NCBI GenBank assembly: GCA_018819105.1
Contig: JAHJQV010000043.1
Location: forward strand, 1 to 64,000
Direction of reading: 5' to 3'
DNA length: 64,000 nt
Origin: Gammaproteobacteria bacterium
GTDB lineage: Bacteria > Pseudomonadota > Gammaproteobacteria > Xanthomonadales > Wenzhouxiangellaceae
The notes under the pieces are model-generated. The model saw only the letters and a list, made by a program, of their open reading frames with translations. It had not been told where the DNA came from and did not search any database. Position numbers and translations under genes: made by a program. This document shows, piece after piece, positions 20,271 to 25,970 of the stretch. Position 1 is the first letter of the stretch; every line of letters starts with the position of its first letter.

Positions 20271-20715
20271 GATTGACCGCTGACTGGAAACGGATCGACA
20301 AGATAGCACAAGCATGCTCAGGTTGAAACAATTGCTGGCTGATGTCAGCCTGACTTGTTCACCAACGTCACGGCTGCGACGCCGTCAAGCCGGTATCTGC
20401 ATCGTTACACATAGTCGCGAAGTGCAGCACCTGGCAGTGCCTCGCTACGAGCGGGTGATGAACAGCAATACTAGCCCGCATTATTCACGAAACCGACTAC
20501 TGCGATGCCGCCAATACCCGCATCTGCGGCGTTTCGCTCGGTCACGAATCCTCAACGTACTGTCAAGTACGCCTGCGGTTCGTTCGGTCGTGAAACACCA
20601 CAGCTACAGGCACTGGCAGCATCTCGCGACGTCGACTCACGAATAATGCGGGCTAGAGCAGGCATGAGCAGGACGGAGCCATTGCATAGCTGTCACCGGC
20701 GCTGTGCGGAATGAC
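20271..20715. other. Intergenic region holding a long palindromic element
   Basis: No gene is supported. The middle (20471-20656) is the palindrome described separately. The flanks (20271-20470 and 20657-20715) show no clear promoter, although the 20270 gene must be driven from here. Confidence 0.6.
20471..20656. repeat. 186-bp imperfect palindrome with 16-bp perfect ends (MITE-like)
   Basis: The ends are CTAGCCCGCATTATTC and its exact reverse complement. The exact centre (20563/20564) is a hairpin, CGTACT-GTCA-AGTACG. The arms pair over most of their length: GATGCCGCCAATACC on the left corresponds to GATGCTGCCAGTGCC on the reverse complement of the right. No ORF or transposase is inside. 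A related element is at 25242-25371. Confidence 0.85.
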
Positions 20716-25241: not shown

Positions 25242-25371
25242 AGCCCGGATTAGTCATGACCCAAACGTCACGAGACGGTTCCAGGTGACATAGCCTTGTC
25301 GTTTCGCGACCGAGCGAAACGACACTACACTAGGGCCGACGCAGTAGCCTGGGGCATGAATAATCCGGGCT
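25242..25371. repeat. 130-bp palindromic element between agcS and pdxH
   Basis: The left end AGCCCGGATTAGTCATG pairs with the right end CATGAATAATCCGGGCT (one mismatch). Near the centre is a perfect 10-bp stem, GTCGTTTCGC / GCGAAACGAC with loop GACCGA (25298-25323). The right end touches the stop codon of pdxH. The ends match the 20471-20656 element (AGCCCG-C/G-ATTATTCA). As it sits between convergent genes it may end both transcripts. Confidence 0.82.
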
Positions 25372-25970
25372 CAGGGGTATAACAGCCTGCTTTGCCACGT
25401 GCCGCTGTCTGCATCCAGTTCCCAGCGGCTGCGGTCATGCAGCCTGAATTCGCGCCCCTGCCAGAATTCGATCATGTCCGGCTGAATGCAGAAACCGGAC
25501 CAGTGCTGCGGACGTGGCACCTCCACGCCGGCGAATTTTTCCGTGTAATGCTGCAGCGCCTGTTCCAGCTCTGCCCGGCTGCCCAGCGTGCTGGACTGCT
25601 GCGAGGCCCAGGCACCCAACTGACTGATGCGCGGACGGGTGGCGAAATAGGCATCGGCGTCGGCATCACTGACCGCCGTCACGACACCTTCCAGCAGGAT
25701 CTGCTGCTGCAGCTCACGCCACAGAATGCAGGCTGCGATGCGCGGATTCTGTTGCAGTTGCCGACCCTTGTTGCTGTTCAGGTTGGTGTAGAACACCACC
25801 CCCTGTTCGTCAATGTGCTTGATCAGCACGGTGCGAGCCGACAGCCGGCCATCGCTGCCGCAGCTGGCGACGGTCATGGTGTTGGGCTCGGGCAGCTCGT
25901 GGTCGATGGCATTTTGCAGTGCGGTTTGCAGCTGATCGAGCAGATTCGTCGGCAGGGTTGGCATGTTCAT
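25371..25970 (-). CDS. pdxH: Pyridoxamine 5'-phosphate oxidase
   Basis: FMN enzyme that makes pyridoxal 5'-phosphate; cytoplasmic. The 199-residue product (typical 215-220) shows TMTVASCGSDGRLSARTVLIKHIDEQGVVFYTNLNSNKGRQL with the FMN-binding RTVLIK and the NSxKGxQL motif, then QILLEGVVTAVSD, RPRISQLGAWASQQS and a C-terminal HDRSRWELD...QSRLLYP ending with the family LxP. It lacks the usual N-terminal arm before the FMN fold. The ATG at 25970 lies in the stop of the SDR gene (ATGA), so the open frame further upstream is not used. The right end of a palindrome overlaps its stop. Confidence 0.95.
   Translation of the reverse strand: MNMPTLPTNLLDQLQTALQNAIDHELPEPNTMTVASCGSDGRLSARTVLIKHIDEQGVVFYTNLNSNKGRQLQQNPRIAACILWRELQQQILLEGVVTAVSDADADAYFATRPRISQLGAWASQQSSTLGSRAELEQALQHYTEKFAGVEVPRPQHWSGFCIQPDMIEFWQGREFRLHDRSRWELDADSGTWQSRLLYP

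Follow-up and report, generated by a model that had tools for sequence, protein, structure and literature searches.

A 186-bp palindromic MITE with IS1380-type ends belongs to a widespread family whose hairpin is favored on one strand

The DNA analyzed here, referred to hereafter as the window, is a stretch of 64,000 nucleotides (positions 1 to 64,000 of contig JAHJQV010000043.1, assembly GCA_018819105.1) from a gammaproteobacterium of the Wenzhouxiangellaceae. A 186-bp palindrome lies between two reading frames that are both on the minus strand, and a shorter relative lies further along the window. The features are as follows.

20471..20656, minus (the hairpin-favored strand): full-length element (MITE); covariance model R1 scores 187.6 bits on minus and 69.5 on plus
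20471..20474, no strand: left target-site repeat CTAG, from identity of the flanking 4-mers
20653..20656, no strand: right target-site repeat CTAG, from identity of the flanking 4-mers
20475..20486, plus: left terminal inverted repeat CCCGCATTATTC; same ends in more than ten phyla and on an IS1380-family insertion sequence (IS)
20641..20652, minus: right terminal inverted repeat; same ends in more than ten phyla
20623..20631, minus: conserved base motif of the hairpin-strand 5' arm, CGTCGCGAG; near-invariant across phyla
20497..20505, minus: conserved base motif of the hairpin-strand 3' arm, TCGCAGTAG; near-invariant across phyla
20549..20578, minus: conserved apical hairpin CCGCAGGCGTACT(TGAC)AGTACGTTGAGGA, from fold, motif conservation and covariation
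25244..25369, plus: second family member of 126 bp, apical part deleted; model R1 75.6 bits
25239..25243, no strand: left 5-bp target repeat CTCAG of the second member, a flanking repeat
25370..25374, no strand: right 5-bp target repeat CTCAG of the second member, a flanking repeat
20346..20468, minus: possible badly decayed third member adjoining the 186-bp element; model R1 27.5 bits, E 1e-4 (a rough E-value)

A preliminary description had placed a self-complementary element at 20471-20656, and these limits proved exact. The ends are perfectly paired over 16 bp, as had been described (20471-20486 is fully complementary to 20641-20656), and 58 of 93 pairs in the end-to-end register are Watson-Crick, whereas 5,000 shuffles averaged 23 and never exceeded 38. 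Every other 186-bp stretch of the window has at most 45 such pairs, making this its strongest palindrome of that length. The inner part of the left terminal inverted repeat (20487-20490) has diverged in this copy. The 6-bp apical stem (CGUACU/AGUACG on the minus strand) is present and sits within about one base of the center.

The two strands differ in how well they fold. As RNA, the whole element reaches -112.4 kcal/mol on the minus strand (74 pairs, 12 of them G-U) and -81.3 kcal/mol on the plus strand (68 pairs, 4 of them G-U). The gap persists without the perfect ends, with positions 20490-20637 folding to -80.6 kcal/mol (z -7.7) and -54.6 kcal/mol (z -3.4) on the minus and plus strands, respectively. 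Nearly all differences between the arms at about 20500-20530 had been said to become G-U pairs in a minus-strand RNA. This is true of 20504-20535, where seven of eight differences are minus-strand G-U, none is plus-strand G-U and one is neither, but it fails at 20500-20503, where two mismatches are neutral and one favors the plus strand. Over the whole fixed register of the window copy, wobbles of the minus type number 12 and those of the plus type 5. When folded with DNA parameters, G-T pairs likewise favor the minus strand (-54.6 vs -43.2), so RNA is not established as the folded form; the energy gap between strands is 31 kcal/mol with RNA parameters and 11 kcal/mol with DNA parameters.

The element is repeated within its own genome, a 68-contig draft that is 98.7% complete. 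About 40 copies at 76-100% identity were found by BLAST, 43 were obtained after re-extraction from loci, and a covariance model from the family gave 96 matches with both strands counted, corresponding to about 60 places. The copies lie in unrelated contexts, mostly with CTAG on both flanks. Many are located at contig ends, as is usual for recent repeats in a draft assembly. The general features of a MITE are all present: terminal inverted repeats, the lack of a transposase gene, many near-identical copies and a target-site duplication (4-bp CTAG, or 5-bp CTCAG around the second member). Left and right flanking 4-mers were identical in 57 of 102 elements, and many of those with unequal flanks look like C-to-T or G-to-A decay of the outer base. 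The fold of the second member retains no strand preference.

Other arrangements were seen in the same genome. Members ending in CCCGG (L061:1169-1353 and L067:1430-1614; numbers with L are our locus numbers) occur beside the 186-bp CCCGC subfamily, so at least two waves of the family have probably passed through. A subfamily of about 208 bp (L025, L032, L041 and L043) has an insert of 24 bp containing the palindrome CCGGATCAAGTCCGG, which looks like a separate small repeat. Another repeat, with the end GTTACAGTATTTCCGGCGGGGTACAC, is nested with family elements and splits one copy (seen at C35:1382-1843, L069, and in the flanks of L005, L017, L028 and L030).

Relatives were sought more widely. 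Matches were present in 20 of 61 genomes searched, the element's own included, all of them from the same bacterial family in that sample, and a covariance-model search of the class matched 18 of 229 genomes. The 20-bp end TAGCCCGSATTATTCATGAA was found at no fewer than 116 loci among 85,000 species genomes, and the matches listed include Nitrospira, Planctomycetota, Myxococcota, Acidobacteriota, Armatimonadota, Zetaproteobacteria, Krumholzibacteriia and others; by their shared ends, relatives of the element occur in more than ten phyla. At least about 60 of the loci listed have the partner end 66-376 bp away, yielding palindromic elements without a transposase gene. The window element had no match in plasmid and phage collections, a Nitrospira element had none in plasmids, and the element ends appeared on one viral contig among 2.9 million. 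A 47-base query matched nothing beyond short exact ends, which were in plasmids of Persicobacter. These plasmids (L224-L226) carry more distantly related Bacteroidota elements of 222 bp, with TAGCCCGGATTATTCATG and TAACCCGAATTATTCACC as their ends. Literature searches on the end sequence and on Nitrospira MITEs returned nothing relevant.

Several variants accompany these relatives. A second core class, with TCGCCGCGATGATTGCGCAG on the hairpin strand, occurs in Mariprofundaceae, Sedimenticola, Wenzhouxiangella and Dokdonella (L177, L126, L160, L185, L188, L196, L218, L134 and L346) and has ends of the same type and the same strand preference. Among cultured hosts, Wenzhouxiangella sp. XN79A and Dokdonella immobilis have copies of the class labeled B. 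Minimal palindromes of about 28-32 bp, TAGCCCGGATTATTCATGAATAGTCCGGGCTA, resemble end-to-end remnants from which the whole core has been deleted (L109:3084, L138:2044, L176:26, L178:4802, L184:20-39 and L193). In Nitrospira, an IS110-family element with a 411-aa transposase is inserted within a member of the MITE family (L217:831-2183). IS110 elements favor palindromic targets, so MITEs of this family may be among their landing sites.

The ends of the MITE are shared with an autonomous transposon. At L257 two family-type ends face each other over 1,661 bp and enclose one gene of 445 aa, whose product matches the IS1380-family transposases (NF033539, 344 bits; PF13701, 424 bits). The terminal repeats of this IS are identical or near-identical to those of the MITE and its flanks are CTAG. 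A second IS1380, L315, from the bacterial family of the window, shares the ends in part: it is bounded by CCCACCTTATTCATC and CCCGCCTTATTCATC, close to the MITE ends found there (CCCGCCTTATTCACC). The MITE differs from these IS in having no transposase gene and only one tenth of the length. Because a 1.66-kb IS with the same ends encodes such an enzyme, IS1380-family transposases probably mobilize the MITEs. Duplications of 5 bp in the family (CTTAG, CTGAG, ATGAT and TTGGA in relatives, CTCAG at the window's second member) and the 4-bp CTAG fit one enzyme family that uses 4-5 bp, which we take to be the length of target repeat that IS1380 elements generate. A literature search for IS1380 with a CTAG target found nothing. 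No IS1380 transposase matched at E<=0.001 in the window's own draft assembly, so the mobilizing enzyme there is deduced from elements elsewhere, and the partner is missing, lost or unassembled. An IS630/Tc1-type origin with TA duplication was favored initially since the outer bases sometimes differ; it was dropped in light of the 5-bp duplications and the IS1380 partner, and the one IS630-like transposase of the genome has different ends.

About 25 elements start exactly at the TAG stop codon of the adjoining reading frame, inside CTAG (among them L002, L011, L016, L122, L124, L145, L147, L170, L185, L200, L209 and L260). By rough gene calls, the sense strand is the weaker-folding one in 19 of these and the hairpin strand in 6.

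Within the ends lies a core that is almost entirely hairpin. The elements carry asymmetric motifs, CGTCGCGAG (or CGTAGCGAG) by one end and CTACTGCGA (or CTGCTGCAA) by the other, and the motifs at the base and apex are near-invariant across phyla. In the cross-phylum alignment 92.2% of the cells of the consensus hairpin are paired, compared to 31-40% when partners are slid by one to three columns. Covariation was strong, with a score of 0.496 against at most 0.105 when slid; both sides have changed in 28 of 47 pairs. At columns 30/173, 39/163 and 86/107, G-C, G-U and A-U alternate and A-C almost never appears, the pattern expected if G-U is a tolerated intermediate on the hairpin strand. In a second set, from other genera, the terminal repeats fall into six or more dissimilar types (TAGCCCGCATTTCTCACC, TAATCCTAAAAACCTCAGTTG and AGAGCCTGTGAAAGCATC among them), yet the core motifs, including the base motif CGTCGCGAG, stay. 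The core was absent from the autonomous IS1380 loci searched. Being constant over differing ends and absent from those IS1380 loci, it belongs to the miniature elements and not to the transposon ends.

To compare strands across the family, the hairpin strand was assigned by sequence motifs alone, independently of the fold. The motif-set strand had the better fold in 41 of 44 orientable elements and, after clustering at 70% identity, in 19 of 22 clusters (p=0.0009). With 38 nt cut from each end it was still better in 18 of 22 clusters (p=0.004), so the motifs themselves do not cause the preference. At 60% identity the count was 7 of 10 (p=0.34), where the sign test is short of power. In the second set, for which 17 other genomes of the class each contributed their best match, the motif strand was better in all 16 orientable elements (p=3e-5, a generous value since a few of them are closely related, two being 95% identical) and in 15 of 16 when the core alone was folded; these matches came from a structure model, though their orientation was set by sequence motif. 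G-U and C-A were compared by fold and by column pairs, since counts from pairwise arm alignment were noisy, and the paired columns were picked by a rule that treats the two mismatches alike. The cross-phylum alignment of 22 elements contained 72 G-U and 34 C-A cells, with column pairs at 26:8 (p=0.003), and the bacterial-family alignment of 12 elements contained 60 and 9, with column pairs at 23:6 (p=0.002). Judged from these sequences, the preference of the hairpin for one strand is real and not a quirk of one copy.

Copies that have settled in the genome behave differently from the family consensus. Among the 43 own-genome copies there are 142 distinct copy-specific substitutions. Copy-specific transitions at Watson-Crick pairs produced G-U 22 times and C-A 19 times, and substitutions per site were 0.76 at paired and 0.79 at unpaired positions; thus no purifying selection for the hairpin was seen in these 43 resident copies. 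The excess of G-U over C-A that had been anticipated across copies therefore holds for the family consensus but not for recent own-genome mutations, and the earlier claim of selection for an RNA hairpin on one strand survives as a hairpin favored on one strand family-wide, while new mutations in residents are unbiased and a DNA fold favors the same strand. The G-U bias is an ancestral trait of the mobile lineage, with no visible upkeep once copies are in place.

The hairpin strand was also not the preferential sense strand of neighboring genes: by rough gene calls, upstream genes were in the same orientation in 35 cases and opposite in 41, and downstream genes in 29 and 48, respectively. Cis-regulation of neighboring genes was rejected because this test gave no sense excess. 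From the unbiased recent changes and the lack of a sense preference, selection seems to bear on the mobile lineage but not on resident copies. The same two results argue against a standing role in neighboring mRNAs; they favor one played during movement of a copy or at the first test of a new insertion.

These results bear on whether the hairpin works in cis as RNA, a read-through transcript in one orientation folding into a long double-stranded hairpin and being processed by RNase III or RNase E, so that the cost of insertion is lowered or neighboring mRNAs are tuned. The minus-strand RNA fold is very stable, the energy gap between strands is greatest with RNA parameters, and with both flanking frames on the minus strand a read-through transcript in the window would carry the hairpin. 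There is precedent in NEMIS, whose transcripts are cut by RNase III, and in ERIC, which acts by orientation on mRNA stability (PMC10969869, PMC2229807). The orientation counts and the unconstrained resident copies speak against it, as does the interval itself, in which no promoter-like site was found, and we regard such a role as possible but somewhat doubtful. A small RNA encoded by the element, with a trans target such as the transposase or its mRNA, would make the element a mobile RNA gene. The near-invariant motifs at base and apex, and a core retained with different terminal repeats, are what such a gene might show; but the interior is nearly all hairpin with no promoter-like site, no Rfam family matched (none around the element up to E=1, and none at gathering scores for four related loci), and a trans-acting RNA alone would not force every mobile lineage to retain its own hairpin. 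We consider it improbable.

Orientation with respect to replication was addressed by GC skew, one of several tests made. In 31 of the 43 own-genome copies the hairpin strand is the strand of negative skew, which is locally G-poor (p=0.005; a few of the windows overlap between copies), and across phyla this orientation was not significant. It hints at a link to replication, and places the hairpin strand mostly off the lagging-strand template, opposite to a simple model of folding on that template. Strand-specific mutation as the source of the bias was rejected, the sign inferred from the skew orientation being the opposite. The asymmetry could nevertheless be without function, an old palindrome having decayed to escape cleavage, its bias either inherited from a shared ancestor or produced by strand-biased mutation. 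The elements are related by descent, so the shared G-U pairs are not all independent, and the own-genome copies do decay without bias. Yet across the family pairs change and stay paired, G-C, G-U and A-U alternating with A-C rare; classes distinct in sequence show the bias again, as does every orientable element of the other genera; and C-to-T damage on an exposed strand should, from the skew orientation, give C-A and not G-U. We consider an origin without function unlikely.

Comparison with known systems shows both kinship and differences. Integron attC sites are imperfect palindromes of which one single strand is favored for folding. The family shares this one-strand preference but differs in its DDE-transposon ends and target duplication, and no attC core sites were seen by eye. 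Four E. coli ERIC loci (L327-L330) also folded better on one strand (-49 to -53 vs -38 to -44, with 3 G-U vs 0-1), so a one-strand preference may be general. Like the window family, ERIC, NEMIS/Correia, YPAL and RUP (about 100-200 bp) are short, repeated and mostly intergenic, with terminal inverted repeats and a long stem-loop transcript, but they have 5'-TA-3' termini and, as far as described, are restricted to groups of genera (PMC2229807, PMC10969869). The present family has IS1380-type ends, repeats of 4-5 bp, a range of many phyla and conserved base and apex motifs; a duplication of 4-5 bp accounts for its 5-bp repeats and identical CTAG flanks better than do the TA ends and TA duplication of ERIC, NEMIS and RUP. 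The CGTC- and GTAG-tagged REPs are likewise palindromic, intergenic and often next to stop codons, and CGTC (or CGTA) opens the MITE base motif; no transposase is known for CGTC-REPs (PMC3733652). REPs are, however, 20-40 bp long with an unpaired terminal tag and, in the CGTC type, a stem of 8-9 bp (PMC3733652), whereas in the window family the tag-like motif is internal and the element, about 180 bp long, has terminal repeats and duplicates its target. MITEs whose transcripts form long stem-loops were thus already well known in bacteria, and what is new here is the IS1380-type ends, the conserved one-strand core and the many-phyla range.

The family, its ends and target repeats, the covariation and the one-strand preference across phyla are what the alignments and folds support directly. 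Since the long-term lineage keeps the hairpin and resident mutations ignore it, we infer a cis role for the hairpin at the point where a copy moves or survives its insertion. The reading we favor, tentatively and at a little short of an even chance, is that IS1380-family transposases supplied in trans move the element, a non-autonomous MITE, and that its folded hairpin strand acts in cis at mobilization. These enzymes would work on CC(C/T)... ends and make duplications of 4-5 bp (CTAG or CTNAG). The favored strand would fold while single-stranded during replication, which would bring both ends into pairing and expose the base and apex motifs; copies able to fold would become the founders of new ones. 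Perfect palindromes suffer cleavage by SbcCD and slippage deletion. G-U (G-T) pairs would keep one strand foldable and leave the duplex an imperfect palindrome, which should escape cleavage and deletion. We lean toward single-stranded DNA or another cis step because it best explains constraint on the lineage without constraint on residents. A transcript-level effect at insertion, in which a folded read-through RNA lowers its cost, is nearly as likely. Some results weigh against mobilization of a folded strand by IS1380 enzymes: ERIC, which belongs to another transposon type, has a similar strand preference that an IS1380-specific mechanism does not predict; the strand gap is larger with RNA than with DNA parameters; no IS1380 transposase was found in the own assembly; and the skew direction is opposite to the lagging-template model.

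Explanations for long-hairpin bacterial MITEs range from mRNA regulation to passive palindromes. The present family answers part of this question quantitatively, in that a one-strand hairpin is held by the mobile lineage, not visibly by residents, and independently of the terminal repeats. This suggests that the folded single strand matters to the spread of the element and not to the adjoining gene. Should ERIC and NEMIS prove to follow the rule, it would be a general property of such elements. A bolder and rather speculative proposal is that the hairpin core, separable from the ends, moves between transposon end types across phyla and that its folded strand, RNA or DNA, is needed for efficient mobilization. 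If true, the folded strand would be a cis nucleic-acid cofactor of a DDE transposon and the one-strand rule would be common to bacterial MITEs, ERIC included.
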